A stretch of DNA of 64,000 nt, taken from Hyphomicrobiaceae bacterium. GTDB taxonomy: Bacteria; Pseudomonadota; Alphaproteobacteria; Rhizobiales; Hyphomicrobiaceae. The stretch is taken from positions 1-64,000 of the forward strand of contig JAEUMD010000024.1 in assembly GCA_016793635.1 (NCBI GenBank), given 5' to 3'. Made by a program: the position numbers and the translations under genes. Below the pieces are notes generated by a model that made no database searches, was not told the origin of the DNA, and saw only the letters and a program-made list of their open reading frames with translations. This document shows positions 33,109 through 48,132 of the stretch, piece by piece. Each line of letters starts with the position of its first letter. Within the stretch, counting starts at the first letter, position 1.

Positions 33109-33171
33109 TAAGTCGTTGATTTTGTGGTGCCGCTTGCGTGACTCGAACACGCGACCCCATCATTACGAATG
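33109..33171. repeat. Left attachment site (tRNA-Thr 3' fragment)
   Basis: Sixty-three bases identical to 48041-48103. They comprise the 3' portion of tRNA-Thr(CGT), from the acceptor end to the 3' side of the anticodon arm, plus 16 bases past the tRNA 3' end. The copy here cannot form a tRNA because the 5' half is missing. This is the signature of site-specific integration by a tyrosine recombinase. Confidence 0.95.
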
Positions 33172-33195
33172 CCGAAACTGATGATGTTTTGTGAT

Positions 33196-33220
33196 GTCGG
33201 TAAACGTTAAGTAAACCGAC
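33196..33220. promoter_or_regulatory. GTCGGT-N13-ACCGAC dyad upstream of the integrase
   Basis: An inverted repeat of 6 bp with 13-base spacing, containing GTAAAC twice in direct orientation 11 bp apart. The 11-mer GTCGGTAAACG (33196-33206) recurs exactly at 35822-35832, in the region before the RepA-like gene. The arrangement fits an operator, or an integrase/excisionase arm site. Confidence 0.45.
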
Positions 33221-33265
33221 TTAATGATCTGGATCGCTTACTCTTTCTTCGATGACGCCGGTAAT

Positions 33266-33300
33266 TCGGGCGACGTGCAAATGCAATTCGCGTCGCCCGA
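33266..33300. promoter_or_regulatory. Long inverted repeat in the integrase leader
   Basis: Ten perfect base pairs (33266-33275 with 33291-33300) around a 15-base loop, extendable outward with mismatches (CGGTAA against TTTACCCCGG). It sits 37 bases before the integrase start, so it could form a hairpin in the mRNA leader that limits integrase expression, or serve as a terminator against read-through from the host. Confidence 0.5.
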
Positions 33301-33336
33301 TAATTTACCCCGGCATTACCCGAACGGAGCGATCCC

Positions 33337-34701
33337 ATGACGAAACGGCAGGCGAGACAGCGCATCACCGAACGCATGGTTTCGAAGTGGTGCAGGAAGC
33401 CCGCGCACGCGGCGGCGCGTGATTATTTCGACTCCGACGTTGTTGGGCTCTGTCTCAAAGTGCAGCCGACCGGCGCGGCGTCGTGGTGCTTCCGTTATGT
33501 CATCGGCAAGACGCAGCGGCGCCTGACACTCGGCGACGCCAAGGGGCTATCCGTCGAGGGCGCCCGAAAAGCCGCGCGGGTCACACTGGCGGTGATCGCC
33601 GAGGGGCGTGATCCAGCGGCCGAGAAACAGGCCCGCCGCCACGCCGAACGCGAGTCAACCGTCCATTATCCTGCAATGGTCGAGCTGTTCATACGCCGCC
33701 ACGGCATGGTCAAGAATCGCCGTTGGCGCGATCAGGCGCGGACGCTCGGCTTGCGGCTCACGTGGATCTCGGCGCGGCGCTTGAATGATCCCAGACCCGG
33801 CGACCCGGCTCCCGAGTTCGAGCCCGTCGCGGGCTCTCTGGCCGAGCGCTGGCTTCGGACGCCGGTCCGCGAGATCACCCGTGCCGACATCGCGGCAGCG
33901 GTGCAGGATGCGATGGCGCTCGGCGACGGGAAGGGCGCTGCCGCCAATACGCGGTTGGCGCAACTCAAGAGCCTCTTTAGCTGGCTGCACGCGCAAGGCT
34001 TCGTCGACGCGCATCCGTGCGAGATGCTGCCTCCTCCGGCGCCGCACAACGAGCGGGAGCGCGTCCTATCGCTCGATGAGATCCGGGCGCTATGGGCCGC
34101 GACGGCGGCGCTCGAAGCGCCCTACCGGCAATTCGTTCGGGTTTTGGCGCTCACCGGACAGCGGCGCTCCGAGGTTGCTCAGATGCGCTGGGCGGAGATC
34201 GCGGGCGATACATGGATAATCCCGGCGGCACGCGCAAAGAACGGCGACGCTCATGCCGTGACGCTATCGCCGCTCGTGCTGGCCGAGCTGGCGTCGCTGT
34301 CGAAGAACGGCCCGCACGTCTTCACGTCGAGCCCGACCGGCGCGACGGCGATACAAAATTTCTCGGACATTAAAGAAGCTCTCGATCGCAACATGCCTCC
34401 TCCGCGGGCCAATGACGACGGCGAGGAAATCGGCTGGACGTTTCACGATCTTCGCCGGACCGCGGCAACCGGCATGGCTGATCTCGGCGTGCTGCCGCAT
34501 GTGATCGAGGCCGTCTTGAACCATCGCTCGGGCCGCGTCTCAGGAATTGCCCGCACCTACAATCGCAACCCGTATGAGCGCGAGAAGCGAGCGGCGCTCG
34601 ACGCATGGGCCGCACGTGTCGCCGAGATCGTCAGGGGTGCTGGCGGCGTGCGCTTGGTGCCTTCAAACATCGTAGCGCTGGGCCGATCGGCATCGGCATA
34701 G
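33337..34701 (+). CDS. int: Tyrosine-type site-specific integrase
   Basis: A 454-residue integrase. The N-terminal arm-binding DUF4102-type domain (about 25-95) has YFDSDVVGLCLKVQPTG and RRLTLGDAKGLSVEGARKAA. A core-binding SAM-like domain follows, and then the catalytic domain with Arg276/277 (TGQRRSEV), His370-x-x-Arg373 (FHDLRR), His396 (LNHRSG) and the nucleophile Tyr408 (ARTYNRN). All catalytic residues are present, so the enzyme looks active. It would recombine the 63-bp sites at the tRNA-Thr gene. It lies beside the truncated tRNA copy, not the intact one. No excisionase is recognised; the neighbouring winged-helix gene may serve that role. Confidence 0.95.
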   Translation: MTKRQARQRITERMVSKWCRKPAHAAARDYFDSDVVGLCLKVQPTGAASWCFRYVIGKTQRRLTLGDAKGLSVEGARKAARVTLAVIAEGRDPAAEKQARRHAERESTVHYPAMVELFIRRHGMVKNRRWRDQARTLGLRLTWISARRLNDPRPGDPAPEFEPVAGSLAERWLRTPVREITRADIAAAVQDAMALGDGKGAAANTRLAQLKSLFSWLHAQGFVDAHPCEMLPPPAPHNERERVLSLDEIRALWAATAALEAPYRQFVRVLALTGQRRSEVAQMRWAEIAGDTWIIPAARAKNGDAHAVTLSPLVLAELASLSKNGPHVFTSSPTGATAIQNFSDIKEALDRNMPPPRANDDGEEIGWTFHDLRRTAATGMADLGVLPHVIEAVLNHRSGRVSGIARTYNRNPYEREKRAALDAWAARVAEIVRGAGGVRLVPSNIVALGRSASA

Positions 34702-34946
34702 CGCGCGTCTGTTGCGTCTCGCTTCTCGTCTGAGTTTCCAAAACAGAAACCCCGGCCGTTGAGGACCGGGGCGCTGTAGGACCGAGCGAATCGCATCGAT
34801 CGTCGTGTGGCAACGCGATCAGATGCGATTCGCATCGATTCTGCAAGAGGTCGAGGCTTGCCCAATCCCCGGAACGACGCTTTCCGAGGCACGGGAGAGC
34901 TTTGCTCGGCGCCCTTCCTTCGCGGCTCACAACGCGAGGAATGCAC

Positions 34947-35609
34947 ATGCAACAACTCGGAAACCTCTTCTCTCCCGCCACGCCGCGGCCGTCACGCTGG
35001 GAGCGCAATCGCTTCCGCAACGGGGCGCAATTCATCGACCCGGCCGCCGTCGCCACGCCGCTCGATCGGAACCAGCGGGCGAAGCTGATCTATCTGGCCG
35101 AAGCTCTTGAGAGGCGCACAAAGCCTCGTGGAAGGCGAAACGGCGTGCTCGGGTACATCGGCCTCGCCGTGTTGAAGGCGCTGCTACTGCGCTTCGCCAA
35201 CGCGAAGACCGGCGCTTGCTATCCGTCAATCACACAGCTCTGCGCAGTCACCGGGTTATGCCGTGCGGCCGTCTGTGACGCGCTCGCCAGATTGGAGCGG
35301 TGCGGCATCATCAGAATAACTCGCAGGATCGTTCGCACGGCAATTGAGCGCGTATCGCCCGTGACAGGTGCGCTTCAGAAATTCGTCGGCGTCGTTCAAA
35401 CAAGCAACGCCTACAGTTTCTCCGTGGATGCACATTCGGACATGGCAGCTGAAGCCGTGGAGATGCTGCCGCCAGCGAATGGGCGGCCGTTTCCTGCTAG
35501 GCGCCAACGCTCGCTTCTCGATAATCTGTTGAACAGTCTAGCCGAGTCGTCCTGGAAGGGTGGAACAGACAAATCGGTTTCCGAGAGAAGAAGAAAGTCG
35601 CCAGATTAA
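34947..35609 (+). CDS. Winged-helix DNA-binding protein, putative replication or control protein
   Basis: A 220-residue protein. The central part (about 60-125) reads as a winged helix: GVLGYIGLAVLKALLL, CYPSITQLCAVTGLCRAAVCDALARLERCGIIRITRRIV. The helix-turn-helix with a two-strand wing resembles the N-terminal domains of phage replication protein O-type and plasmid Rep proteins (HTH_36-like). The C-terminal third is basic and low in structure. The ATG at 34947 follows GAGGA at 34936-34940. Its place before an AT-rich region and an AAA ATPase gene suggests a replication initiator or its regulator. Confidence 0.6.
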   Translation: MQQLGNLFSPATPRPSRWERNRFRNGAQFIDPAAVATPLDRNQRAKLIYLAEALERRTKPRGRRNGVLGYIGLAVLKALLLRFANAKTGACYPSITQLCAVTGLCRAAVCDALARLERCGIIRITRRIVRTAIERVSPVTGALQKFVGVVQTSNAYSFSVDAHSDMAAEAVEMLPPANGRPFPARRQRSLLDNLLNSLAESSWKGGTDKSVSERRRKSPD

Positions 35610-36023
35610 AACGCGATTATTTATTCATCGACGATTTCGGCCATCCGGCGGGAATAATTTTCCCGACCGCAACAGTCGCGCGTGCGGATCATTGCGTCTG
35701 GAGTTCTTATTTATTCATGTCTGTTCAAGGGCTTAATATCGTCTGTTCCGTAAATTCAACTCGCGTGACTCGAATTGACGTGTTACAACATCCATTACCG
35801 AAACAACGAAAAGCCGCCCTCGTCGGTAAACGAAGGCGGCGAAAAGTTGGGTTCGGTTCGAGTGGGAGCTAAGCCGCGGCCACGGCCTATCCCCCGAAAA
35901 TGAAGTCATGCAAGTTCATTTATAGAGACAAATCGCCGGCAAGGCAACTTCATTCTCGGATACTAGATTTCGTGCCGCGCTCCTGCTCGATCCCCCCAGA
36001 TCGAGTATTCAGGAGACGTGTAA
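35610..36023. promoter_or_regulatory. AT-rich control region before the RepA-like gene
   Basis: A 414-base gap with no gene. The 12-mer TTATTTATTCAT occurs twice (35617-35628 and 35707-35718, 90 bases apart). A hairpin at 35813-35840 (10 bp with one mismatch) carries in its left arm and loop the 11-mer GTCGGTAAACG, also found upstream of the integrase. The region is much AT-richer than its flanks. It may hold the rep promoter and its operators, or a replication origin. Confidence 0.5.
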
Positions 36024-37649
36024 ATGAACGCGAGTAATTCACTTACGCCTATGCCGCACATCGGCATCGATATCGCCGCGGGCGAGGCACTGAACCACAT
36101 ATCACCCCGCCTGTTTAGTGATTTTCGGCGGCTGTGCTGGGATCGAGAAGAGCGACATTTCCCACAAACCGTGCTTGAAGCGCGCAACGCACTCAAGACC
36201 GTCTATGGCGACGGCGAGGACGGCTTTGAGAGATACCGGAGCTGGTTGCGGCGCGACGGCGAACTCTTCGACAAGTTGGGGGGCGATATCGGTATCAGCG
36301 CCTCATGGAAACGCGCATCCGGCCCCGCCTACACGCAAGCCGAAGCGTTTGACCAGATCGACAAGCTCGCCGCCGCCTCGCTCGACGTTCTCGACTTCAA
36401 GGTCAACGATGAGCGCCAGAAGCAAGCTGAAGCCGAGCAGGTTGAGGCGCAGAAATGGCTTGCCGCGAACCCGGAAGAATTGCTGGCCTACGACGACGAA
36501 ACCGGCGAATCGTTCGCATGGCGTTTGAAAGCCCCGGCGAATGACACGGCGCCCGAGCCGACGTACGGATCGCGCCGCATGTCTGATATCGAAGAAAAGC
36601 CGATTAGTTGGCTTTGGGAAGATCGCATCGCGCGGGGCAAGATCACCCTCATAGGCGGCGTCCCGAAACTGGGAAAGTCGCAGCTCTCATGCGCATTCAC
36701 AGCGGCCGTGACGACCGCGGGACTATGGCCGGATGGAACACGCGCGCCGCTTGGATCTGTCGTGCTCATAACCGCCGAAGACGATGCCGCCGATACGATC
36801 CGGCCGCGGCTTCGAGCTGTTGGGGCCGATCTTAGCCGGGTGCATCTGTTCGACTACGCCGTCCGGGGAGGAAAGAATCAGCAGTTCGATATCGGGGCTC
36901 ACACGGGCAATCTTCGGGCGATGATCAAGGATATCGGCGACGTGAAACTCGTCGTGATCGACCCGGTGCTGGCCTATATGGGCAAGGCGGACAGCCACAA
37001 AAACGCGGACGTTCGCGGCGCTCTTGTCGGGCTTCAGACCCTCGCCGCGGAGCTGGGGATCGCCGTCATTCTGATCACTCACACTAACAAGAACGACGCT
37101 GGCGGGCAGTCCGCTATGAACCGGCTTTCAGCTTCGGGCGCGTTCTCCGGCGTCGCGCGGGGCATTTGGCTCGGCGTGAAAGATCCAGACGATGAGACCG
37201 GCGAGCGTCGTCTGTTCGTGCCCGTTGGCGCCAACATTGGCAACGATCGCGAGGGCTTCGCCTTCAGGATCGAAAGTGTCGACCTTGGGAATGGTATCAA
37301 GACGTCGAGAGTGGTCTTCGAGGCCGCGGCTGTTCAGGTCGACGCCGACGAGCTTGTCTCAGCGCAGCGGCGGGACGGAGCAGCCGCAGAGGCAGAGACG
37401 CTGCTTCGGGCCGAGCTGGCGAACGGGGAGCGGCCGGAGAAGGCGCTCCGAGAAATTGCTGACCAAGAGGGAATTTCCCTGATCACGCTACGCCGAGCTG
37501 CGAAGAAAATCGGCGTGCTGAAGCGCAAGCCGGGAAAAAATTGGCTCTGGAAATTGCCTTCCACCGGGGCGTCGGACCCGTCCGAGGAATTTTCGGAGTT
37601 AATTCGGGAGGCCGAAGAGGAACACGGTGATCATAATCCTACGTTGTGA
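36024..37649 (+). CDS. RepA-like AAA ATPase (hexameric helicase type)
   Basis: A 541-residue protein. An N-terminal region of about 190 residues has no motif I recognise. A RecA-like AAA_25 ATPase domain follows: Walker A GGVPKLGKS (211-219), VVLITAEDD, and Walker B LVVIDP with Asp313. A conserved ILITHTNK (sensor-like) and ASGAFSGVARGIW complete the core. The C-terminal region has a basic helix-turn-helix-like stretch (LREIADQEGISLITLRRAAKKIGV). Such proteins act as replicative helicases of plasmids (RSF1010 RepA) and of phage satellites. The last codons run into the TGATCA repeats. Confidence 0.85.
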   Translation: MNASNSLTPMPHIGIDIAAGEALNHISPRLFSDFRRLCWDREERHFPQTVLEARNALKTVYGDGEDGFERYRSWLRRDGELFDKLGGDIGISASWKRASGPAYTQAEAFDQIDKLAAASLDVLDFKVNDERQKQAEAEQVEAQKWLAANPEELLAYDDETGESFAWRLKAPANDTAPEPTYGSRRMSDIEEKPISWLWEDRIARGKITLIGGVPKLGKSQLSCAFTAAVTTAGLWPDGTRAPLGSVVLITAEDDAADTIRPRLRAVGADLSRVHLFDYAVRGGKNQQFDIGAHTGNLRAMIKDIGDVKLVVIDPVLAYMGKADSHKNADVRGALVGLQTLAAELGIAVILITHTNKNDAGGQSAMNRLSASGAFSGVARGIWLGVKDPDDETGERRLFVPVGANIGNDREGFAFRIESVDLGNGIKTSRVVFEAAAVQVDADELVSAQRRDGAAAEAETLLRAELANGERPEKALREIADQEGISLITLRRAAKKIGVLKRKPGKNWLWKLPSTGASDPSEEFSELIREAEEEHGDHNPTL

Positions 37650-37754
37650 TTATGATCATCTATGATCATCTATGATCTTCAAGCAGTGTGCTGACGATGA
37701 TGATGATCAATGGTGATCAATGGTGATCATGATCAATGGACGTGATGATGATCA
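37628..37754. repeat. TGATCA repeat array, candidate iterons/replication origin
   Basis: Eight TGATCA hexamers begin at 37628, 37653, 37663, 37704, 37714, 37724, 37730 and 37749. Two sets are exactly 10 bp apart (37653-37663, continued by TGATCT at 37673; and 37704-37714-37724), so the sites face the same side of the helix. The first set has the unit TATGATCATC and the second has TGGTGATCAA variants. The array overlaps the end of the RepA-like gene, a usual place for plasmid and satellite origins. Confidence 0.65.
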
Positions 37755-37806
37755 CCATCCCGAGCCCCGGCGAAAATCAATAAATTAAATTCGCGGCGCG
37801 TGAGCT

Positions 37807-38343
37807 TTATTCTTTTTTGCTGAAGCCGGCAACCGCCCAGTAGACGGCAGAACCGAGCAAGAGGACGATCAACGGTGGAACAACGCCTGTCGCTACGCTG
37901 ATTGCGACCAATCGAAATGGCTTCGCTGGGTCCGAAATGTAGACCGGCGATCTTTCAGCATAATCAATTTGCTGGTGATAAATTAACCGATCAGCGAATG
38001 TTGCACTCGCCCCCGGCGGAGGCGGGATGTGCGTTTCGGAGAGTAGCTTTCTGATCGCCTCCCGGTCCACAGCCGGATGTTGAAGCGGCGCGGCAACTTG
38101 TTTCATGATGTCGATCAGGTCGGTTAACAAGGGTTTTCGGGCGGCGTCTTCGATCATCCCTCGGAGGGTGTTTTCATCGACGTCGAGGGGCTTGAACACC
38201 TTCCGCGATAGGGCAAGCTTTTCTTCCGCACGGAGAGCGGAGAACTCGTCGACGACCTTCGGAATGAAAGCTATGCCCGCAATGGCGATCCAAAGCGCAC
38301 TGGCAACGAGCCACAGTCTCGATAGTCCCCGCTTCATATTCAT
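37807..38343 (-). CDS. Small two-helix membrane protein of unknown function
   Basis: A 178-residue protein with a transmembrane helix near the N-terminus (LWLVASALWIAIAGIAFIP, about 8-26) and another at the C-terminus (GVVPPLIVLLLGSAVYWAVAGF). Between them lies a charged periplasmic or cytoplasmic domain of about 120 residues. The basic opening MNMKRGLSRLW and the closing FSKKE resemble small membrane proteins common in rhizobial accessory DNA, for which no function is known. I start at ATG 38343; a longer frame to 38427 has a poor start. It is the only minus-strand gene in the element, so it may be a lysogeny-time (moron or exclusion) function; this is a guess from orientation. Confidence 0.65.
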   Translation of the reverse strand: MNMKRGLSRLWLVASALWIAIAGIAFIPKVVDEFSALRAEEKLALSRKVFKPLDVDENTLRGMIEDAARKPLLTDLIDIMKQVAAPLQHPAVDREAIRKLLSETHIPPPPGASATFADRLIYHQQIDYAERSPVYISDPAKPFRLVAISVATGVVPPLIVLLLGSAVYWAVAGFSKKE

Positions 38344-38518
38344 CTGATCCGCTCGTGCGCCGTTGTCGCCGATTGATCCTGCCTCGCTTTCGCTTGCTTC
38401 GTAAGCGGCGGCAGGGCATCCATCCACTGCCTTCAGCCGATGTGGCCGTTAGCGGCTTTCCCTCGCTTGGAGCCGCGTCCGTGGTGTGCTTGACCCAAGT
38501 GGGCCGGGAGAAGTGATC

Positions 38519-38815
<297 letters not shown>

Positions 38816-39414: not shown

Positions 39415-40188
39415 ATGGACAGCAACGTGAAAGATGAGCTGGCGACGGCCGGCCAAAATCAGAAAGTATTCGATGCAGACGAGGCGGCGGCTCTGCTTGA
39501 GCTTAGCCAGATGCAACGGAAATTTGCTGACGCGGTGCTGAGGGGAGCCACCTACGTAAAAGCCGCTAAGCTTGCCGGATACTCTGGCGAGGGAAATAAC
39601 CTTCGTTCTACTGCAAGTAAAGTCGCGAAGTCGCCGGCCGTCCGGCAGTACATGGCGCTGGCGAAGTCCGGCGGCGCCGCCGTCCCCGACGATCCCGCGG
39701 ACCGCGAAGAGCTGAAGCGCACGCTCAGTCGGCACTTGCGAGGCGGTGACAAGGCGACGTCGATCCGCGCCGCCGAAGTGATCCATCGAATTAACGCGGC
39801 CGAGCTGGAAGAGAAATCCAAAGCCCCGGACCCTCCCGACGTTGTTCTCGACAAATTAAGCGAACTCGGAGAGCTGGGCTGCTGCATCGCCGTCCTACTC
39901 GCCCGGAAACATCGGCTCGCCTGGAACCCGCCGACCGCGCTCGCGCCCGATGCCGAGAAGCGCATGGTGGCGGAGCTGAAGACCCAAATGACCGAGGCGG
40001 ACCGCCGCCGCGTCGAGCACTTCGCCGACTTGCAGAACAATTTCTCTCAGAATTTCCGCGCCAACGACGATGGCTCCTCGGAAGGCGCGGAACAAGGCCG
40101 GGCGTCGGGGCGAGGGGCGGTTCCTGCCTCGACCCCGGCGCCTGGGCCTGTTGGTCACCCTCAATTCAGAAAGTCGTACCTCCGATGA
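39415..40188 (+). CDS. Terminase small subunit-like protein
   Basis: A 257-residue protein. Residues about 30-80 read like the DNA-binding domain of phage small terminases: MQRKFADAVLRGATYVKAAKLAGYSG, then SKVAKSPAVRQYMALAKSGG. It is followed by a helical pair resembling the region in which small terminases oligomerise (ELKRTLSRHLRGGDKATSIRAAEVIHRINAAELEE). The C-terminal 60 residues are Ser-, Gly- and Pro-rich. A small terminase selects the DNA to be packaged and needs a large terminase, which is not encoded here. The assignment rests on pattern likeness only; a general wHTH regulator is the alternative. Its stop overlaps the next start. Confidence 0.6.
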   Translation: MDSNVKDELATAGQNQKVFDADEAAALLELSQMQRKFADAVLRGATYVKAAKLAGYSGEGNNLRSTASKVAKSPAVRQYMALAKSGGAAVPDDPADREELKRTLSRHLRGGDKATSIRAAEVIHRINAAELEEKSKAPDPPDVVLDKLSELGELGCCIAVLLARKHRLAWNPPTALAPDAEKRMVAELKTQMTEADRRRVEHFADLQNNFSQNFRANDDGSSEGAEQGRASGRGAVPASTPAPGPVGHPQFRKSYLR

Positions 40189-40526
40189 GACAGCTCAAGA
40201 TCCGCGTCCCGCAGCAAAAGCAGGACATGAATTCCACCTTCGAAGGCAGGGCGCCCGTCGACCCGGCGCAGCCCCGCGGCAGCTTGCCCAAGCATCTGGC
40301 CGCCGTGAGGCTCCCGAACGGCCGGACGCTCGGACAGCTCAGCGGGGCCGATATCGCTCGGCTCCTACAGCTCGCGGGCGTCCCCGGCGCCGATCGAGCA
40401 CCCGAGATGGGGCGGCAACAGCTCGCCGAGCTGATGACGAGCACGCTGGACAGCATCGGCCGGGAAGCGGCGGAACGCGCCATCGCGAATTGGCTGAACC
40501 AGAATTTCGCGGAGGTTCTTCGATGA
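40185..40526 (+). CDS. Unknown small protein of the phage-like operon
   Basis: A 113-residue protein whose ATG overlaps the previous stop (ATGA). The C-terminal half is helical (LSGADIARLLQLAGVPG, LAELMTSTLDSIGREAAERAIANWLNQNF). I do not recognise a family. Position after a terminase-like gene suggests a packaging or head-assembly accessory. Confidence 0.6.
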   Translation: MRQLKIRVPQQKQDMNSTFEGRAPVDPAQPRGSLPKHLAAVRLPNGRTLGQLSGADIARLLQLAGVPGADRAPEMGRQQLAELMTSTLDSIGREAAERAIANWLNQNFAEVLR

Positions 40527-40765
40527 GCCTCCGGCGCCTCGACGGATTGCCCGATGATGCCCGGCCGTCGATCGACGGAGCGGACTTCGCCGAGATCGTC
40601 GAGAGCCATCGCCGGTTTCATCGGGACATCTACAGTCATGCGGAACGCCATGATCTCGACCGGCGCCGCTACCGCACTGTGATCGAGAAGAGCCGCGAAG
40701 CCTCAGCCGATGCAATCGATCTGTTGCTTCGCATGTGGGTTCCAGACCCCGACTGGCCCAATTGA
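40523..40765 (+). CDS. Unknown small charged protein of the phage-like operon
   Basis: An 80-residue, charge-rich, mostly helical protein (FAEIVESHRRFHRDIYSHAERHDLDRRRYRTVIEK) ending LLLRMWVPDPDWPN. Its ATG overlaps the previous stop, so it is translationally coupled. No family recognised. A longer frame that runs through it from 40070 overlaps the upstream genes and is not credible. Confidence 0.6.
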   Translation: MSLRRLDGLPDDARPSIDGADFAEIVESHRRFHRDIYSHAERHDLDRRRYRTVIEKSREASADAIDLLLRMWVPDPDWPN

Positions 40766-40778
40766 GAAGGGTTACGAC

Positions 40779-41891
40779 ATGGGAATCGGAGACGGCTTCT
40801 TTGATGGCTTCTTTCTCGGCGGTGTTCAAGAGGGCATGTCCGAGCGCCGGGAATTCGAGCAAAAGAAGGCTATCCAAGACGCGGCGAATGCTCGCGCCAA
40901 GGAAGAGCTTGGATTGAGCAAGAAGAAGTTCGCCCATGCACGGCAACAGGCCGAACAGGCGGCGAAGCTCGAAATGAAGGATCGATCCGAGAAGCACTTG
41001 AGCGCAATGCTCGCCGACATTGAAGAGACGACGAAAGCCCTACGGCAAGCTGGCGCCAGTCAGGATCAGATTGAACAGACCCTCGCGCCCTACGCGACGA
41101 AGGCTCTTCAGTTCGGCACGAAGTTCGGCGCCGATCCTGAACTACTCGGCGCACGTCTCGGCGCGATCGTCAGTCGCCCGGCCGCCCCGCAGACCGATAT
41201 CGGAAAGCTCGAAGCGGATCGCCGCGCCGGCTACATCGACGAAGCGACCTATCGCAAGAAGCTCGACGCGATCGGCTCCGGCGGGATCACGATCAACACC
41301 GGAGAGAAGGGCGCGAACAAGTTCGCCGAAGAGCTGAATAAGGGCATCGCTGGCGAGTTCATCGAGAAGCGCAAGAGCGCAATCGACGCCATCGCGTCGA
41401 TGCAATCGACCGCCGAGGCCCGGAAGCTGCTCGATGCCGGCATCATCACAGGCACGGGCGCCGACTATATCTTGCAGTTCGGTAAGTCGCTGCAAACCGC
41501 GGGCGTCACTCTGGCGCCGGAAGCGATCGCCAACACGGAAGCATTCGTCGCCACGCGTGCCGCCGAAGTTGGCCGGATCATCAAACTGTTTGGCGCCGGC
41601 ACTGGTCTGAGCGACGCCGATCGCGAGTTTGCTACGCGAGCCGCGGCAGGATCGATCACGCTCACCGAAGCCTCGATCAAGCGCGTGCTCGAAATCAATC
41701 TGCGGGCGAGCCGCAACGTCATCAAGGCTTACAACGCCGACGTATCGCAGCTCGATCCGTCGATCCTCCCGTTCGATCTTCGCTTGCCCGAAGCGCCGGC
41801 CGCCGCAACCGGCGAAGCTCCGATCCGCAAGACCATCAACGGCGTGACATACGAGAAGCGCGACGGCACTTGGTTTACCGTCAGCAAGTGA
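40779..41891 (+). CDS. Putative phage structural/DNA-ejection protein, 370 aa
   Basis: An Ala-rich, largely helical protein. It opens with a Gly-Phe-rich segment (MGIGDGFFDGFFLGG), then a charged coiled-coil-like region at about 22-110. The C-terminal third has FGAGTGLSDADREFATRAAAGSITLTEASIKRVLEINLRASRN, a pattern seen in virion-associated proteins of podovirus-like prophages. The end NGVTYEKRDGTWFTVSK is also a common ending of such proteins. I infer a virion-internal or head-vertex role, with modest confidence. ATG 40779 is preceded by GAGAAGG. It lies 13 bases after the previous gene and 9 before the next. Confidence 0.55.
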   Translation: MGIGDGFFDGFFLGGVQEGMSERREFEQKKAIQDAANARAKEELGLSKKKFAHARQQAEQAAKLEMKDRSEKHLSAMLADIEETTKALRQAGASQDQIEQTLAPYATKALQFGTKFGADPELLGARLGAIVSRPAAPQTDIGKLEADRRAGYIDEATYRKKLDAIGSGGITINTGEKGANKFAEELNKGIAGEFIEKRKSAIDAIASMQSTAEARKLLDAGIITGTGADYILQFGKSLQTAGVTLAPEAIANTEAFVATRAAEVGRIIKLFGAGTGLSDADREFATRAAAGSITLTEASIKRVLEINLRASRNVIKAYNADVSQLDPSILPFDLRLPEAPAAATGEAPIRKTINGVTYEKRDGTWFTVSK

Positions 41892-41900
41892 GGTCGGCAC

Positions 41901-43853
41901 ATGGACACTCGTGAAGCCCCCGGAGGGCGCGTTACAGACCCGAAGCTGATCGAGCAACTGGAAAGCGCCGCCCTCGGCGAACCCGTTCAGGACGAGCAAT
42001 TGATTCGTCAGCTCGAAGGGCTGGCGCCGATCACTCCCGCCGATCGAGACATGAACGATCAGCAAGAGTTTTTCGCGCGTGCCCGTCGCCAGATCAAAGG
42101 TGAGGAACCGCCGACCGTCGACCCGATGGACCCGAAGACGGGTAGCACACTCGCCGCGCCCAAGCGCATCATCAGCGCGGCGACCGAGGCGGCGAAAGAA
42201 GCCTTCACGGAAGGCGGCGAGCTTGGCATCGATGACGCCGGCAACGTCATCGTGAAAGCGGGCTCTGCATTGGCCGATGCGGTCTTGCGGAGCGTGAACG
42301 CAGTTGTACGCGGCGGCGCTGCGGCAGCCGGGCAGACGGCTCGCGAGGCGGGCGCTTCGCAGGGTATGGCGGCACGCCTGGAACGCGATCTCGTCGGCAT
42401 GACGGAAAGCACCGCGGGTGCCACGCCTGGTGCTGCACTCAAAGTCACGCCGAAGACCGCCACGGGCGCCAGCTCTGCGGCACGTGCGGCCGATGACACT
42501 CAGTCCGCTTTGCGCGCTGCGGAACGCCTGGGCGTGGAAGTTCCAACCGGCGCCGTTGGCAACATCAAGCCGCGTGTTGCCGGTGCTCTCGCGGACACCC
42601 CTGTAGTTGGGGCCTCGCTCGCCAACGCGGCGAAAACGGCAACAGACACACTCGAAGGGACTGTTGCTCGCATCGCCGATGAGCTGGGCGGTGCCACGAT
42701 CGCGAGCGCTGGCGACACTACGAAGGACTCACTCGTAACCTGGGTGCAGGAAGTCTCGAAGAAGCGTGCCGCTGAAATCTTCGCACCCGTTGAAGCGCTC
42801 GTGAAGGACACGCGAGCGCCGCTCACTCGCACGGGCGTTGCGCTTCGTGATCTCACGAAGCAAGCGAAGGCGTCGGGCCTTCCGCCGCCGTCGATCGTCG
42901 ATCAGTTCCAGGACGTGCTCGACGCCGCGCAAGAGGCCGGCGGCATGACGTGGAGTGGAATGCAAAGGCTTCGCACCGAGATTGGCGACCGTCTGAGCGG
43001 CAACATCGTGCCAGAGCCCGGTCTGTCGAAACGCGCGTTGAAGGCCGTCTATGCGGCGCTGAGCGATGATATCGAGTTCCTGACGCGCAAGGCCGGCGGC
43101 CCGGCTGGCGTGGCAGAGTGGAAGAATGCGAACGAGCTGTTCAAGTCGGACGTCGCCACGCGCCGGAGTGCCATCGAGAAGATCGTCGGCAAGAACGGCG
43201 ATGCTTCCGCCGAGACGGTTGCGGAACGCATTCTCACGATGGCCAGCGACAAGCGCGGCGCCGATCTGGAACGGCTTCTCGACGTGCGCTCGACGCTCGA
43301 CAACGCCACATGGGATCAGCTCGCATCGGCGGCGCTGGGGCGCATGGGACAAGGCAAGGATGGTTTCAGTCTTGCGGCGTGGCGGACGGCTTACGCTAAG
43401 TTGAGCGACCCTGGTAAGAAGCTTCTCTTCTCCGATGATCACCGCGCCGCGCTCGACGATATCGACGAGGTTGGCCGCGTCTTCGAGCGCCTGACGAGGC
43501 TCGGGAACCCTTCCGGCACTGGCCGCATGAACGCGGTCATCGGCGGCGCGTCTCTCGCGTCGATCAATCCGCTGTACCTGCTCGGAACCGTGTTGACCGG
43601 CGCCGCTATGTCGAAGCTGCTCGCGCGACCGGCGACCGCAAAGGCGGCTGCCGATTGGAGCAAAGCCTACGCCAACGCCGCGGGCAAGACGATCACCGAA
43701 GACACCTTCAACGCGGTCAAACGTGCGGGCCTCAGGTTGCGCTCTGTGCTCGACGCGGAAGGCATCGAAGTGCTCGCGGTTCATCCTGGGATGGCCGCCG
43801 GTCCGGCGATCAGATCGTTCAACGAAACCCCCGAAAGCGAAGAGCAGGAGTAA
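41901..43853 (+). CDS. Large putative DNA-ejection protein, 650 aa
   Basis: A 650-residue Ala-, Ala-Gly- and Asp-rich protein, mostly helical. A short acidic N-terminus (DPKLIEQLESAAL and DEQLIRQLEGLAP) holds two related 12-residue motifs. Long amphipathic helices fill the middle. A membrane-compatible stretch near the C-terminus (GGASLASINPLYLLGTVLTGAAMSKLLARPATAKAAADW) is typical of podovirus DNA-transfer or ejection proteins that enter the host envelope. Homology is inferred from composition and these motifs, not from an alignment. It is the largest gene of the element. Confidence 0.55.
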   Translation: MDTREAPGGRVTDPKLIEQLESAALGEPVQDEQLIRQLEGLAPITPADRDMNDQQEFFARARRQIKGEEPPTVDPMDPKTGSTLAAPKRIISAATEAAKEAFTEGGELGIDDAGNVIVKAGSALADAVLRSVNAVVRGGAAAAGQTAREAGASQGMAARLERDLVGMTESTAGATPGAALKVTPKTATGASSAARAADDTQSALRAAERLGVEVPTGAVGNIKPRVAGALADTPVVGASLANAAKTATDTLEGTVARIADELGGATIASAGDTTKDSLVTWVQEVSKKRAAEIFAPVEALVKDTRAPLTRTGVALRDLTKQAKASGLPPPSIVDQFQDVLDAAQEAGGMTWSGMQRLRTEIGDRLSGNIVPEPGLSKRALKAVYAALSDDIEFLTRKAGGPAGVAEWKNANELFKSDVATRRSAIEKIVGKNGDASAETVAERILTMASDKRGADLERLLDVRSTLDNATWDQLASAALGRMGQGKDGFSLAAWRTAYAKLSDPGKKLLFSDDHRAALDDIDEVGRVFERLTRLGNPSGTGRMNAVIGGASLASINPLYLLGTVLTGAAMSKLLARPATAKAAADWSKAYANAAGKTITEDTFNAVKRAGLRLRSVLDAEGIEVLAVHPGMAAGPAIRSFNETPESEEQE

Positions 43854-43858
43854 CAGAC

Positions 43859-44164
43859 GTGGCAAAGAGCAAATTCGGCGAGTCCCTGGAAGGCTTGAGC
43901 GGCGATCAGTTCGCTCGCGTGCAAGCCGAGATCATCGCCGAGGCCACCCGCCGCGGCACGTCGGCAACCGATTGGGACCGCGTGGCGCACATGAGCGAGC
44001 ACGAGTTCAGCAACTTCGTGCAGCGCGCATATCAGTCTAACGAAGTCGGCCGTGCAACCCGCGAGCTGGAACGCGCGGCGAAGGCGCACGGCAAGGTGCT
44101 CGCAGATCCGACGCCGGCCGCGACCGAGAAGAAGACCGAGGATGACCATGGCGACTCCGAATAA
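43859..44164 (+). CDS. Unknown small protein of the phage-like operon, GTG start
   Basis: A 101-residue protein (VAKSKFGESLEGLSGDQF) with a GTG start preceded by GGAG at 43847-43850. It is helical and charged, with an acidic C-terminal tail (KKTEDDHGDSE). Its end overlaps the next gene by 17 bases. No family recognised. Confidence 0.6.
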   Translation: MAKSKFGESLEGLSGDQFARVQAEIIAEATRRGTSATDWDRVAHMSEHEFSNFVQRAYQSNEVGRATRELERAAKAHGKVLADPTPAATEKKTEDDHGDSE

Positions 44165-44921
44165 CGAAACCCCGGCTGGCCCGGACATTGCAAGCCCGGC
44201 GGCCCCGCAACAGAGCGCCCCAACAGACGATCTTGATGGGCTGTTGCGGGAGTTCGACTCGGGCTCTGGGAGCGCGAAGGCGCCGCAGGGCGGATCAACC
44301 GCACGTGCGGCGCCTGAGCCGGTATCGCCGGGCAACGCTCTGGAAACGCCGCCGACCTTCGCCGATCGGATCTTGCAGCTCGCGACGGAGCACGATCGCC
44401 GTCTCGCAGAAGCGCTCTCCGGCGTGCGTCACGATGCCGACGAGAGCGCCGCCGAGCGCAGCGACCGTCTCACTCAGTTGGAACAGTTCGCCGCCGGCAT
44501 CGAGCACGAGCGTTTCGTTCAGCGCGAGCGCGCCGACGCCGAGGCGGTGTTTTCCCATGGATCTGAGATCCTGGGAGAAGTCGCGCCGTGGCTACCCGGC
44601 GACTACGCGAAGACTTGGTTGCTCAACGAAGCTCGGACAGACGGCGATCTCGCCGAAGCCTGGGAAAGCCGGTACGAATCACCCGAGCACGCGGCCCGTG
44701 CGCGGCAGGAGATCGGCCGGGCGATGAAGCGCTTCAATGCCCATCTTCGCAGCCTCCCTGACCCCGTGTTGACGAGCCAACGCGAGATCGTCTCCGCGTC
44801 TGTCCGCGGCGCCGCTCTCGATAAGGCCCCGAAACCGGCGCCGCTTCGTTTCGACGGAATGAGCGATTACGACTTCGCCGGCACGATCGAGAAGAAGTTC
44901 GGCTTCAGGCCAAGGGTGTAA
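44148..44921 (+). CDS. Putative assembly/scaffold-like protein
   Basis: A 257-residue protein with a disordered, Pro/Ala/Ser-rich N-terminal 65 residues. A charged coiled-coil-like region follows (TFADRILQLATEHDRRLAEALSG through FVQRERADAEAVF), then WLPGDYAKTWLLNEARTDGDLAEAWESRYESPEHAARARQEIGRAMKRF. The end, MSDYDFAGTIEKKFGF, is a helical tail of the kind seen in capsid-assembly proteins. I cannot confirm this. ATG 44148 follows CGAGG; ATG 44142 is two codons earlier. Confidence 0.5.
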   Translation: MATPNNETPAGPDIASPAAPQQSAPTDDLDGLLREFDSGSGSAKAPQGGSTARAAPEPVSPGNALETPPTFADRILQLATEHDRRLAEALSGVRHDADESAAERSDRLTQLEQFAAGIEHERFVQRERADAEAVFSHGSEILGEVAPWLPGDYAKTWLLNEARTDGDLAEAWESRYESPEHAARARQEIGRAMKRFNAHLRSLPDPVLTSQREIVSASVRGAALDKAPKPAPLRFDGMSDYDFAGTIEKKFGFRPRV

Positions 44922-44930
44922 GGCAACAAG

Positions 44931-45215
44931 ATGAGCATTCGCACGCGATCGGTCACACTCTGCGCTGAGCACTGGACACCGCTCCACACGGGCACATCGG
45001 CCCTCGTGCAGTTCGGCGCCGCTGGCACCATGCTTCTCCGCGTGTGTCCGGCCGGAGATCCGGCGCCGGCCGGATCGGGGCGCTCAGGGTCACTCGTAAT
45101 CGTTGGTCACGAGGGCAACGGCATGGCTCCGATTATCCAGATCGCACTGCACCCTGGCGACACGGCGTATGGTCGCCTCGTTTCCGGCGAAGGGTCTGTG
45201 ACGATCTGCGGATGA
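44931..45215 (+). CDS. Small beta-rich protein, possibly a decoration protein
   Basis: A 94-residue protein with alternating hydrophobic stretches and Gly/Pro turns (GTSALVQFGAAGTMLLRVCPAGD, GSLVIVGHEGN, IIQIALHPGDTAYGRLVSGEGSVTICG). These suggest a compact beta fold such as head-decoration or fibre-type proteins. It has no assigned family. It closes the operon; a GTTGA/TCAAC hairpin with an A-rich loop follows immediately after the stop (45216-45232). Confidence 0.45.
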   Translation: MSIRTRSVTLCAEHWTPLHTGTSALVQFGAAGTMLLRVCPAGDPAPAGSGRSGSLVIVGHEGNGMAPIIQIALHPGDTAYGRLVSGEGSVTICG

Positions 45216-45361
45216 GTTGACGAAAAATCAACGCCGCGTTGAGTTTCAAGAAACGCTCGTAAAAACAATAGCTTCTTGCGTTTTGTCGATACCATTTCTC
45301 AACAAATCAGAGTAAACAATAAGCATGTTCTGAAACCCGACCGAGAAATGGAGCCACGACA

Positions 45362-45601
45362 ATGAACCTCGAATTCGCTTTCGCCCCGAACCCGCGGGAT
45401 TGGTCTTTCGGGTACTGCACCGCTTTCGCCGATCTCGGCATGGCGTCGCTGGTCATCGGCCCGTTGCACGTGCAATTCGGCTGTGACGTCGACCGGGCCG
45501 AAGAGCTGGCGCCTGCACTGAGATCCCCGCGGACGGCGCTGCGGGCGTGGATGGCAGAGCGCTGGGCGCCGTCCGGCCGCGGAGCCCAGGAAATGTCCTA
45601 G
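45362..45601 (+). CDS. Unknown small protein upstream of parA
   Basis: A 79-residue protein (MNLEFAFAPNPRDWSFGYCTAFADLG) with a GGAG site before its ATG. The sequence is not repetitive and has the codon bias of the element. I recognise no family. Its end runs into the first CTAG motif. The AT-rich 45216-45361 before it may hold its promoter. Confidence 0.5.
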   Translation: MNLEFAFAPNPRDWSFGYCTAFADLGMASLVIGPLHVQFGCDVDRAEELAPALRSPRTALRAWMAERWAPSGRGAQEMS

Positions 45602-45685
45602 GATATAATCCTAGTATTTACTGTCTCAAAACTACAAATCGATATAGGATTGATCCCTAGGACTAGCACCTAGGGATTTTTCCTA
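45596..45685. promoter_or_regulatory. CTAG-motif cluster 1: parA operator/centromere candidate
   Basis: Within 90 bases directly before and over the parA start are CTAG cores at 45598, 45611, 45657, 45663 and 45670, mostly in TCCTAGGA or CCTAGGGA palindromes, plus half-sites ATAGGAT (45644-45650) and TCCTA (45681-45685). CTAG is rare in bacterial DNA, so the cluster is not chance. It is a likely binding site for the ribbon-helix-helix partner encoded after parA, acting as operator and perhaps as parS. Confidence 0.7.
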
Positions 45686-46374
45686 TGAAAACGCCGATGC
45701 CGGATCGCCAGTGCCGTGTCATCGCATTAGCCAGCGCCAAGGGCGGCACGGGCAAGACGACGTTGACCGCTTGCCTCGCCGTCGAAGCCGCCAAGTCGGG
45801 GCGCGTGGTCATGATCGACGCCGACCCGCAACAGTCGCTCACGCTCTGGCACCGCGCCCGCTTGGCCAACGATGACGAGGGCGAGAACCCCGGCTTGATG
45901 CGCGCTGGAACAGAGCCGCTGGCCGAGAAAGTCGAGCTTCTGCGGAAGGCAGGCGCCGATTGGGTGTTAATCGATCTGCCGCCCGGAGACGTTGACTTGC
46001 TCGAAGCCGGGATTGCGGCGGCGGATTATATCGTCATCCCGATCCGCGCCAGCAGTCTCGACGTCCAGGCGATCGGCCCCACCACCGATCTCTGCAGCGA
46101 CTACGTGCGACCGTTCGGGATCGTCACCAACGCCGTGGAGCCGAGCTGGAAGATCAGCTCAACAGTCGCCCCGTTCTGCAAGGCGGCGGCTCTTCATCTG
46201 TTGAAGGCGACGGTCACTCAACGCCAAGCCTACACGGGCGCAATGGTGGCCGGCGCCACCGGCCCCGAATATCACGATGCCCGACAAGCGAAAGTCTGTG
46301 CGACCGAGATCAAAGTCCTATGGGATGAGATCCGCGCCGAAGTCCTAGCATTGTGTCCTAGCAATAATTCCTAG
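45685..46374 (+). CDS. parA: ParA-family partition ATPase
   Basis: A 229-residue ParA of the small (type Ib-like) class. It has the deviant Walker A KGGTGKTTL near residues 20-28, switch DADPQQS, VLIDLPPGDVD (Walker B) and IPIRASSLD. It lacks the N-terminal helix-turn-helix of type Ia ParA, so regulation should come from the small downstream DNA-binding protein. It would move or segregate the extrachromosomal form of the element, implying that the element exists as a plasmid at times. Confidence 0.88.
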   Translation: MKTPMPDRQCRVIALASAKGGTGKTTLTACLAVEAAKSGRVVMIDADPQQSLTLWHRARLANDDEGENPGLMRAGTEPLAEKVELLRKAGADWVLIDLPPGDVDLLEAGIAAADYIVIPIRASSLDVQAIGPTTDLCSDYVRPFGIVTNAVEPSWKISSTVAPFCKAAALHLLKATVTQRQAYTGAMVAGATGPEYHDARQAKVCATEIKVLWDEIRAEVLALCPSNNS

Positions 46375-46493
46375 GAAGTATCGAGCCATGAAAGTGAAGA
46401 CGCCTCAACAGGATGATCTGACCCAACTGCTGAACCTAGGATTTAGTCCTAGGGCTTCGCTGGGCAACACTACCAAGGACCGGAAGGCTCTAG
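46343..46493. promoter_or_regulatory. CTAG-motif cluster 2: end of parA and start of its partner gene
   Basis: CTAG cores occur at 46345, 46358, 46371 (within TTCCTAGGAA spanning the parA stop), 46436, 46449 and 46490. The motifs continue into the first 110 bases of the ribbon-helix-helix gene and so are embedded in coding sequence. Together with cluster 1 they flank parA on both sides. Confidence 0.6.
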
Positions 46494-46699
46494 CCGGTAG
46501 CCGTGCGATCCCTGCCGGGGACAAGCGCCGGAAGCCCGCCGAGCAACGCCGCGACGTTCAGATCAACTTCAATGGCACCGCGGACCTTCGCGACCTGATC
46601 GCCGACTTGGCACAGCAACACAAGTGCAGCCGAGCCGAGCTGATCGATCGCGCCGTGCGGGCGTTCGCCGGGAAAGGCCAGGGGAAGCGCCAACCATGA
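46388..46699 (+). CDS. Ribbon-helix-helix DNA-binding protein, putative ParB-type partner
   Basis: A 103-residue protein with a flexible basic N-terminus of about 55 residues. Next is a ribbon-helix-helix domain: the strand RRDVQINFNG, then TADLRDLIADLAQQHKCSRAELIDRAVRAFA. The architecture (basic arm plus RHH) is that of ParG/omega-type centromere-binding proteins encoded after small ParA ATPases. It probably binds the CTAG sites and represses the operon. Its stop overlaps the next start (ATGA). Confidence 0.78.
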   Translation: MKVKTPQQDDLTQLLNLGFSPRASLGNTTKDRKALAGSRAIPAGDKRRKPAEQRRDVQINFNGTADLRDLIADLAQQHKCSRAELIDRAVRAFAGKGQGKRQP

Positions 46700-47853
46700 T
46701 CCGAACCCTTTTGCTCGCCTTCGGTCTGATCGGCGGTGCCGTTGTCGTGGCGCTGGTCGCCCGGCACGGCTTCCTGACCGCAGACACCCCCCTGGACGGC
46801 TATGCGCTTGCGGCGCTGTTGTCGCTCATAGCGATCGGCGGGCTCGTTGGACACGCCGTCGCGGCGCATCTGTGGCCGGTCAGCCGGGGAGCTGCGGCGG
46901 GCGTATTCCTGCTTGCCACGGCCGCTCTGTTGCTGAACCTCTCGACGTCGTTCGAAGCGATCATCGGGCGGGCGGCAACCGGCGAAGCCGAGCGTTCGCA
47001 GCGGATCAAAGACCGGGCCGCCGCGGAACGCGAGCTGGCCACGCTCTCGGCTGAGCTGTCCGGTTTGCGGGATCATGTGCCCGTGTCCGCCGACGCTGCG
47101 AAGGCGGCTCGTGACCGGGCGACGGCGGCGGCCGAACAGCGCGAAGCCGAGTGCGCCAAGCGTGGCAACAGGTGCCGCGACCGGGAAGCCGACGAACGGG
47201 CAGCGCTCGAAACGCTGGCGACGATCGAGCGCGACCGCGCATTCTCGATCCGCCGGGCCGATCTGGAAAGCCGCACGGCGAAGCTCAGAACGTCGCTGGC
47301 CGAGATCCCGGCGACCGGGCACCCCAACGTCATGGCAGCCGGCATCGCCCGTCTGTTCCGTCTCCCTGAAGCCGATGCGCTGAGCGCCGCGACGTGGCAC
47401 AAGCTGGCCATCGCCGGTTTGGTCGAGCTGCTGATCGCAGCAGCGTTCTTCGCAGCCGAGGTTTCGCGGAATGGGAGTGCAACCAACCGGCCCGAACAGA
47501 CGCTCGATCGGCCGGAGTTCACGCAAAATCATTCCCCGGCCCTAACCCCGGCGCCGATCGTCGAGCCGGCGCCCGTGAAAGAGATCGACCCTAAGCCGGT
47601 GATCGCGTTCCTCGCCGATCGCGTCGAAGCGCGCCGGGGCAGCCGTGTCAGTCTCGCCGACCTTTACCGGGCGTATGTGGCGAGCGAGGCGGACAGGGCG
47701 CTCGGAGCTGCCGAGTTCGCAGCGGCGCTGCGGACGATCTGTGACCATGCCAATTGGGACTTCGAGGCGGGCGACGGGGATATGATCTTCCTCGCCGGAC
47801 GGCGGTTGCGTCCTACCCGTCCCGCCTTAGAGCATGTGAGACGCGCCAGCTAG
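46696..47853 (+). CDS. Membrane protein with coiled coil and C-terminal winged-helix-like domain
   Basis: A 385-residue protein. Three hydrophobic helices lie near residues 2-22, 38-58 and 65-85. A long Ala/Arg/Glu coiled coil follows at about 95-190, including a CAKRGNRC pair. A fourth helix is at about 262-282 (LAIAGLVELLIAAAFFAAEV). A C-terminal domain of about 80 residues (VSLADLYRAYVASEADRALGAAEFAAALRTIC) resembles the winged helix at the end of D5-type replication proteins. Translational coupling to the partition genes suggests a membrane tether for the element's replication or segregation. That is inference. Confidence 0.6.
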   Translation: MIRTLLLAFGLIGGAVVVALVARHGFLTADTPLDGYALAALLSLIAIGGLVGHAVAAHLWPVSRGAAAGVFLLATAALLLNLSTSFEAIIGRAATGEAERSQRIKDRAAAERELATLSAELSGLRDHVPVSADAAKAARDRATAAAEQREAECAKRGNRCRDREADERAALETLATIERDRAFSIRRADLESRTAKLRTSLAEIPATGHPNVMAAGIARLFRLPEADALSAATWHKLAIAGLVELLIAAAFFAAEVSRNGSATNRPEQTLDRPEFTQNHSPALTPAPIVEPAPVKEIDPKPVIAFLADRVEARRGSRVSLADLYRAYVASEADRALGAAEFAAALRTICDHANWDFEAGDGDMIFLAGRRLRPTRPALEHVRRAS

Positions 47854-47866
47854 AGGGAGAAGGGCC

Positions 47867-47941
47867 ATGCACGAAGACGACGAAGACGCAATCATCGCAC
47901 TGGACGGGGGCTTTCCGGGGGACGATGAAGCTGCCGAGTGA
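47867..47941 (+). CDS. Possible 24-residue acidic protein at the end of the element
   Basis: A short frame (MHEDDEDAIIALDGGFPGDD, 24 residues) preceded by GAGGGAGAAGG, an almost perfect ribosome binding site, 13 bases after the previous stop. It is strongly acidic, as are several phage anti-host or DNA-mimic peptides. It may be a real small gene but could be chance. Confidence 0.4.
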   Translation: MHEDDEDAIIALDGGFPGDDEAAE

Positions 47942-48040
47942 CGCCGCCGAGTGAATCACCTAACCTGCCACGAGGCGCCCCGCGGCTGGTTTTACCCCAA
48001 GTGGCGCTCAGGGTAAGAAATCCAGGGTCTATGGTTCGGA

Positions 48041-48103
48041 TAAGTCGTTGATTTTGTGGTGCCGCTTGCGTGACTCGAACACGCGACCCCATCATTACGA
48101 ATG
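48041..48103. repeat. Right attachment site (overlaps tRNA-Thr)
   Basis: The second copy of the 63-bp repeat, identical to 33109-33171. It covers the 3' half of the intact tRNA-Thr gene and 16 bases beyond its 3' end. The tRNA is intact at this junction, so insertion does not destroy it. Confidence 0.95.
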
Positions 48104-48132
48104 ATGTGCTCTACCGGCTGAGCTAAAGCGGC
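48057..48132 (-). tRNA. tRNA-Thr (anticodon CGT)
   Basis: A 76-nt cloverleaf. The acceptor stem GCCGCTT pairs with AAGCGGC, and CCA is encoded. The D-arm has GCTC-AGCCGGTAG-AGC, and the anticodon stem CATCA/TGATG holds the loop TTCGTAA with anticodon CGT. The T-arm is CGTGT-TCGAGTC-ACG. It reads ACG codons for threonine. The gene is the integration site of the element, which lies on its 3' side. Confidence 0.96.

Follow-up and report, generated by a model that had tools for sequence, protein, structure and literature searches.

An integrated element in tRNA-Thr of a Hyphomicrobium relative encodes a small terminase subunit and predicted DNA-ejection proteins and is probably a helper-dependent phage satellite

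The window analysed here is a stretch of 64,000 nucleotides from a Hyphomicrobiaceae bacterium (assembly GCA_016793635.1, contig JAEUMD010000024.1, positions 1 to 64,000), and it contains an integrated element at 33109-48103 in a host related to Hyphomicrobium. The element is bounded by a perfectly matching 63-bp direct repeat. The left copy, attL (33109-33171), repeats the 3' end of tRNA-Thr, and the right copy, attR (48041-48103), overlaps the tRNA-Thr(CGT) gene on the reverse strand (48057-48132) that is the integration target. The size of the element, and of the predicted excised circle, is 14,932 bp. No third copy of the repeat was found in the 26 contigs of the same genome. In a genome of the same genus (G364) the corresponding locus is unoccupied, with the tRNA and att sequence joined directly to the left flank; the likeness of this flank to that of the window is weak (91 of 118 alignment columns identical, att counted in). 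Stretches bearing a replication gene also adjoin tRNA-Thr(CGT) in genomes G310 (L038 4902-6903) and G347 (L040 8133-11416), and both lie beside a relative (58% and 53% identical, respectively) of the gene next to the element (window 48321-50276), so the locus looks like an insertion hot spot.

Genes of the element are on the forward strand unless stated. A tyrosine integrase of 454 aa (33337-34701; PHROG 1, 8e-50; PF13356, PF00589) is followed by a RepO-like winged-helix replication initiation protein (34947-35609, scanned from 34902; PHROG 1032, 2e-6; HTH_36) and by a 541-aa AAA_25 replication ATPase/helicase-like protein (36024-37649; PF13481, 5e-30; PHROG 10729, 2e-17). Iteron-like TGATCA-rich direct and inverted repeats, a candidate origin, lie directly 3' of the ATPase gene (37651-37758). 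Towards the right end, CCTAGG-centred inverted repeats (45595-45690), a candidate par site or operator, stand upstream of a gene for a ParA partition ATPase (45685-46374; PHROG 164, 5e-33). An earlier sequence-only reading of this DNA had named an integrase, a replication-type ATPase with repeats, ParA and a small terminase subunit (TerS); PHROGs and Pfam bear out these genes, and the repeats correspond to the TGATCA-rich units. Its ribbon-helix-helix partner for ParA fared less well. The candidate partner (46388-46699) has a weak match to a regulator family (PHROG 3887, 0.001) and none in Pfam.

An operon with eight genes and intergenic gaps of -17 to +13 bases occupies 39415-45215. It is as compact as had been claimed, and 4-base overlaps occur at 40185, 40523 and 46696. 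The first gene encodes TerS (257 aa, 39415-40188; PHROG 51, 1e-8; PHROG 641, 6e-8; weak Pfam match, 0.089); three matches of TerS to yeast Chs5 in the PDB were taken as chance. It is followed by genes for a small basic protein of 113 aa (g40185, 40185-40526), with one or two relatives in the islands of Hyphomicrobium sp. D-2 described below, and an 80-aa protein (40523-40765). Next come two of the large helical proteins, here called ejection protein 1 (ej1, 370 aa, 40779-41891) and ejection protein 2 (ej2, 650 aa, 41901-43853). A 101-aa protein (43859-44164), an acidic helical protein of 257 aa (g44148, 44148-44921) and a 94-aa protein (44931-45215) complete the operon. The 80-aa and 101-aa proteins were included in the PHROGs scan and have no assigned function, and the 94-aa protein has no PHROGs, Pfam or phage match.

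The two large helical proteins are, judging from their homologs and gene order, podoviral-type DNA-ejection proteins, which the sequence-only reading had not recognized. ej2 matches a DNA transfer protein family (PHROG 770, 1.2e-7), gp13 of Pseudanabaena phage Pam5 (35%) and, in Rhizobium phage RHph_Y1_10, a protein named "putative injection protein" (31%). ej1 matches proteins of ppBjS10J-1 (43% over 41% of the query) and of phage DSL-LC05 (35% over 29%), and in both its relative immediately precedes the gene for the DNA transfer protein, or the one that occupies this place. In IMG/VR contigs and in one contig of a metagenome-assembled genome, ej1 relatives come after capsid and stabilization genes. 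The positions of ej1 and ej2 are like those of P22 gp20 and gp16, labels that lean also on the P22 gene layout. RHph_Y1_10 and Pam5 (for ej2) and DSL-LC05 and ppBjS10J-1 (for ej1), all presumably P22-like, as their gene order fits, have these genes in the same late-region position. Unlike the window, the stretches compared have an annotated capsid in all four, a portal in three and TerL in two. The ej1 and ej2 proteins gave no match to PDB sequences at E up to 1. The predicted structure of ej1 (pLDDT 66) has six BFVD matches at E <0.001, to five uncharacterized phage proteins and one glucosamidase-like phage protein, and none to PDB structures at that threshold. A plasmid search with ej2 returned three weak matches, and a near-identity DNA search of phages returned none. 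Matches to non-phage families, which the sequence-only reading had named as evidence that would speak against it, did not appear: in profile searches the proteins match phage families and not others.

No gene for the large terminase subunit (TerL), portal, capsid, tail tube or lysis was found in the PHROGs scan, which covered 16 of the 17 predicted genes, all but the 98-aa one at 38519. Since the genes of at least 300 aa are all accounted for (integrase, replication ATPase, the two ejection proteins and a 385-aa membrane protein), the element has no room for a TerL or a portal of the usual size. The earlier claim that there are no other packaging or structural genes therefore holds for TerL, portal, capsid and lysis; it was too strong in that the two helical proteins are predicted to be of virion type. 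Besides TerS and these two, no other late-region gene was recognized. Scaffold function was considered for g44148, which is acidic and helical and thus scaffold-like by composition alone, and was rejected, as hhalign gave a probability of 0.2 against four phage scaffolds; its AlphaFold model is poor (pLDDT 54).

The gene content can be set against the known classes. Phage satellites have been described as elements of 7-20 kb with an integrase, flanking att repeats and replication genes of their own (PMC13376191). The element has an integrase, att repeats and its own replication genes at 14,932 bp, and among the 16 scanned genes there is no complete virion gene set, as the satellite definition asks. 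The strict wording of the same source would exclude it for its two virion-type ejection proteins (PMC13376191). AlpA, the master regulator of Gram-negative phage-inducible chromosomal islands (PICIs), was not matched among genes of at least 60 aa in PHROGs (16 of the 17) or in Pfam (12 of the 17). Of the genes by which capsid-forming PICIs are recognized (capsid, protease, portal, connectors, TerS, TerL) the element has TerS alone. P4-like satellites are defined by an alpha primase and psu, delta and sid, none of which was matched in the PHROGs and Pfam scans. A phage-plasmid combines a complete virion set with plasmid replication, and such a set is missing here. What the element does have, like EcCIMP1, is a set of podoviral-type ejection genes unaccompanied by head genes.

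The PICI EcCIMP1, from the commensal strain E. coli MP1, is inserted in tRNA-Thr, and it circularizes only with its helper Kapi1, which transfers it (PMC11773190). Four genes follow one another in its record (L052): they encode a DUF2824 protein, the protein at the gp7 position, one labelled "phage DNA ejection protein" and a lytic transglycosylase. No further virion gene is annotated, and neither terminase, portal nor capsid is among the annotations. At least 80% of the EcCIMP1 stretch is present in 69 of 5,426 complete E. coli genomes. Both EcCIMP1 and the window element are tRNA-Thr islands with an integrase, a replication gene and podoviral-type ejection genes without head genes, whereas EcCIMP1 differs in its AlpA-type regulators, its TOPRIM/DUF927 replication protein, its DUF2824 gene and the lack of TerS. 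Of its four cassette proteins the transglycosylase alone matches window proteins, with a weak likeness to ej2 (27.5% over 109 aa, E 6e-7, in a comparison with 15 window proteins only). Mobilization by a helper phage, which also belongs to the satellite definition, is a prediction for the window element. A satellite with an ejection cassette thus has an experimental precedent, since EcCIMP1 is transferred and its cassette is similar. Its authors discuss three of the cassette genes as packaging candidates (PMC11773190).

The cassette of the window is found again in two islands of Hyphomicrobium sp. D-2 (G327, which agrees with D-2 in every letter over both stretches), one of 14,243 bp in tRNA-Val and one of 15,512 bp in tRNA-Thr(CGT). 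The second of these is an island in the same tRNA with the cassette genes in the same order, of the kind that the sequence-only reading had proposed to look for. Both repeat the order TerS, g40185, ej1, ej2, g44148 and carry besides a 282/283-aa protein in the gp7 position; TerL, portal and capsid are absent among the genes called in both. Identity to the window is 35-44% for TerS, 40-43% for ej1, 32-36% for g44148 and 42% for ej2. The integrases are 42% and 38% identical to that of the window, and the replication genes differ. At 31-45% identity, the reading frames of TerS, ej1 and g44148 are uninterrupted in each of the three islands and that of ej2 in two, whereas every one of the five alternative frames of the window genes contains 1-26 stops. 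g44148 is conserved across the three ejection islands. A TerS match in G355 lies among ordinary chromosomal genes and was taken as chance.

Related islands were also reached through the replication ATPase and the membrane protein, neither of which is encoded by a virion gene. The ATPase has eight strong relatives (E <1e-40) among 103 genomes of the family and 15 relatives at E up to 0.001, own genome included. The membrane protein has matches in 66 of the 103 family genomes and 70 of 397 genomes of the order, counts that were not used for islands, as many matches lie in frames of 400-530 aa and at least two (L152, L164) in ordinary-looking chromosomal surroundings. Twenty-seven loci were read, 8 reached via the ATPase and 19 via the membrane protein (14 family and 5 order matches). 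They were picked by match strength and come mostly from one family; strong family matches (G379, G299, G352, G306, a second one in G297, a broken G354 copy), dozens of order matches and L154 were left out, and some of the 27 (such as L136, L137, L152 and L153) may not be islands. PHROGs scans covered some proteins of 14 loci, and the other 13 were compared with our own reference set alone. A tape-measure or ejection-type protein was found in 10 of the 27: tape measures in L033, L034, L035, L140, L141, L145, L146 and L148, an internal virion protein with an endolysin domain in L139, and a transglycosylase, the weakest case, in L135. The presence of tape-measure proteins in related islands is a further point that the sequence-only reading did not contain. 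Other virion genes were TerS (three loci), capsid (two), head protease (two) and TerL (one), and none of the 27 has a convincing portal; a 105-aa protein of L034 matching a portal PHROG at E 0.0095 is too short and the match too weak to count. Delivery proteins, whether ejection proteins or tape measures, are the virion parts most often carried by these islands. A hand-made tally counted 18 elements, of which 14 have delivery genes (9 of 13 in its "unbiased" part); it was discarded because it omitted marker loci in which no such gene was recognized, and 10 of 27 is used instead.

Nine islands have flanking repeats (14,932, 14,243, 15,512, 14,403, 16,812, 11,329, 14,130, 19,834 and 8,139 bp), and a delivery gene is present in eight. 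For four of these the choice is biased: the window element is the starting point, and the two D-2 islands and that of G212 C104 came from queries with ejection proteins or TerS. Free of this bias, four of five carry one (G354, G351, G366 and G370 C9) and G344 does not. The cleanest case is the 11,329-bp island of G351 in tRNA-Arg, with genes for an integrase, a primase-helicase, a capsid protein, a tape measure, TerS and the membrane protein; its tape measure has no match in phages. G366 has a lone tape-measure gene. A major-head-protein gene (PHROG 10) accompanies TerS in L146 (G351) and L144 (G349), with no recognized portal or TerL.

We consider it probable that the window element is an integrative helper-dependent phage satellite with a genome-delivery module of its own. 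Its gene content, its precise tRNA insertion and the recurrence of the cassette in two other islands support this half of the earlier suggestion of a satellite or phage-plasmid hybrid; the phage-plasmid half finds no support, as no capsid, portal or TerL was found. Upon helper infection or induction, the element would excise and replicate from its iterons. Its TerS would steer the helper TerL to satellite DNA, for which the heads, portal and tail of the helper would be used. The satellite ejection proteins would replace those of the helper in these virions and build the conduit into the next cell, and ParA would keep the circle until the integrase re-inserts it. The most likely reason for carrying delivery proteins is that a conduit unlike that of the helper would give access to cells from which the helper is shut out, its lysogens among them; bypass of superinfection exclusion is a plausible purpose for them.

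Work on P22 provides a background for this idea. The conduit through which P22 DNA enters the cell is built from gp7, gp16 and gp20, and SieA very likely blocks it via the latter two (PMC10883804). Foreign sets of these ejection (E) proteins from four phages give working P22 virions, gp16 and gp20 must match to function, the HK620 set partly overcomes SieA, and other exclusion proteins can be evaded through changes in the tape measure (PMC10883804). These results allow tape measures to be regarded as the counterpart of podoviral ejection proteins. The long-tail tape measures of related islands suggest parasites of viruses that swap the injection device of their carrier virus. A broader proposal is that there is a family of satellites in Hyphomicrobiaceae and their kin, paralleled in E. 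coli, which share the trait of replacing the delivery proteins of the helper and so pass exclusion at the inner membrane, including that of helper lysogens. We hold this to be possible but rather doubtful, given a TerS without a phage match, an ej1 tree that does not resolve, a selection test whose control failed and loci picked by match strength. Known satellites are sorted largely by their takeover of heads and packaging; DNA entry into the next cell is a different step, for which satellites may likewise supply the means themselves. If the proposal is true, a helper-dependent parasite could enter cells that already hold that helper, and there would be a testable role for EcCIMP1 genes so far discussed as packaging candidates. 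No title or abstract opening returned by literature searches on satellites, in a library without preprints and most subscription journals, describes satellites with tape-measure or ejection proteins as a class.

Stl, cpm and pri are characteristic genes of SaPI-type PICIs. None of the three was matched in the window element, which unlike those islands has ejection proteins and ParA; in common with it, SaPI-type PICIs have their own TerS, which redirects helper packaging (PMC10690885). Capsid-forming PICIs also bring some virion genes of their own, but these are for heads and packaging and the tails are taken from the helper (PMC10690885), whereas the islands described here mostly bring the delivery part. 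AH14b of Pseudomonas is likewise a small satellite with one tail-related gene, for tail assembly protein I (PMC4936722). It differs in its P4-like primase and AlpA, and the passages cited mention no TerS, tape measure or ejection gene (PMC4936722).

Several results weigh against the satellite reading and its delivery module. A tblastn search of the phage collection gave no match to TerS, which leaves packaging compatibility with a helper unsupported; g44148 has no convincing phage relative by the same method, and for this reason both look like satellite genes. None of 14 phage or prophage loci holds relatives of both ej1 and ej2 (E ≤1e-3), so it is position only that makes them a matched gp20/gp16 pair. 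The ej1 of phage contig L056 is 46% identical to those of the satellites, which are 42-45% identical among themselves, and an unresolved ej1 tree leaves the satellites ungrouped (supports 53-60); part of the ej1 divergence may therefore predate the satellites. No relatives of g44148, the membrane protein or ej2 (single query) were found in IMG/VR. In the second D-2 island ej2 is frameshifted (L047 12096-14053), by mutation or sequencing error. Second codon positions were better conserved than third in nine gene pairs (P 8e-6 to 5e-20), but six pairs of unrelated genes put through the same alignment gave a similar, smaller excess (second positions 0.46-0.50, third 0.25-0.35). Most of the effect thus stems from aligning under guidance of the protein; the P values were set aside, codon positions no longer serve as an argument for purifying selection, and the open frames are what remains. 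This outcome makes the satellite reading slightly less probable, and a prophage remnant slightly more so, than they had seemed. Seventeen of the 27 marker loci have no recognized tape-measure or ejection gene. Three of the four foreign E-protein sets failed to escape SieA (PMC10883804).

No intact helper was seen in the own genome either, just a 3,066-bp fragment. This possible helper fragment of podoviral type (G000:C24:1-3066, L158), whose presence in the same assembly speaks for the satellite reading, holds two ORFs for TerL and the beginning of a portal gene (PHROG 156, 5e-37; 27% identical to the RHph_Y1_10 portal). A prophage with matching helical proteins, which the sequence-only reading had suggested seeking in the host genome, did not emerge: the one match of ej1 and the one match of ej2 are the island itself (4 of 21 first-look candidates scored for ej2, 5 of 6 for ej1). 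An RcGTA-like cluster (G000:C15:60000-79999, L163) encodes a short protein resembling a tape measure besides TerL, portal and capsid. Heads of known gene transfer agents (GTAs) hold only a few kb, and a GTA was therefore rejected as the carrier.

The main rival explanation, which we regard as unlikely, is that of a defence island whose ejection or tape-measure proteins poison helper virions, to the benefit of the host or of the satellite, and do not deliver the satellite. Interference with tail assembly is a described defence strategy, and such immune systems are also found in PICIs (PMC11364771); a lone tape-measure gene, as in G366, would suffice for it. Poisoning accounts poorly for two phage-length ejection proteins kept together with TerS, for the need of P22 gp16 and gp20 to match (PMC10883804), and for the transfer of EcCIMP1 with its four-gene cassette (PMC11773190). 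Less probable still is a remnant of a P22-like prophage that has lost its TerL, portal, capsid and tail genes. A deletion inside the late operon of a podoprophage would leave TerS and ej1-ej2, and intact podoprophages with a homologous ej2 exist in the same order, in G075 and G141, together with portal, scaffold and capsid genes; the failed control of the selection test also leaves room for decay. The sequence-only reading had named relatives with full virion genes as a finding that would count against it, and in the 20-kb stretches compared these two prophages show no island-type replication or membrane gene. Against a remnant, the reduced cassette is shared by three islands whose integrases have diverged, whose replication genes differ and which use two tRNA targets, its frames are open at 31-45% identity (the ej2 of one island excepted), and Rep, ParA and the iterons are plasmid-like. 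A phage-plasmid, or an integrative element of plasmid type whose phage genes are incidental, to which the iteron-like repeats, RepO/AAA_25 and ParA would be suited, is very improbable, since the TerS-ejection cassette recurs, the lack of capsid and tail genes argues against a phage-plasmid, and the PHROGs and Pfam matches include no conjugation gene (no conjugation-specific search was made).

The remaining genes of the element are small, with the exception of the membrane protein. A 178-aa protein with two hydrophobic segments is encoded on the reverse strand (37807-38343) and a 79-aa protein at 45362-45601; both were included in the PHROGs scan and have no assigned function. The 98-aa gene (38519-38815) is a weak prediction, within which AACGAC is perfectly repeated six times (38522-38557). 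The membrane protein (46696-47853) has four hydrophobic segments and a C-terminal domain, and its relatives in other islands end in a winged helix-turn-helix. Those of the G354 tape-measure island and both D-2 islands are 35-52% identical, and that of the window is weakly related to them. Another relative lies among ordinary-looking chromosomal genes of the own genome (G000:C12:462379-463737; L164 7380-8738), and the islands may have captured this gene from the host. Outside the element, the genes at 17700-32570, adjoining attL, form a run that by eye resembles a polysaccharide synthesis cluster.

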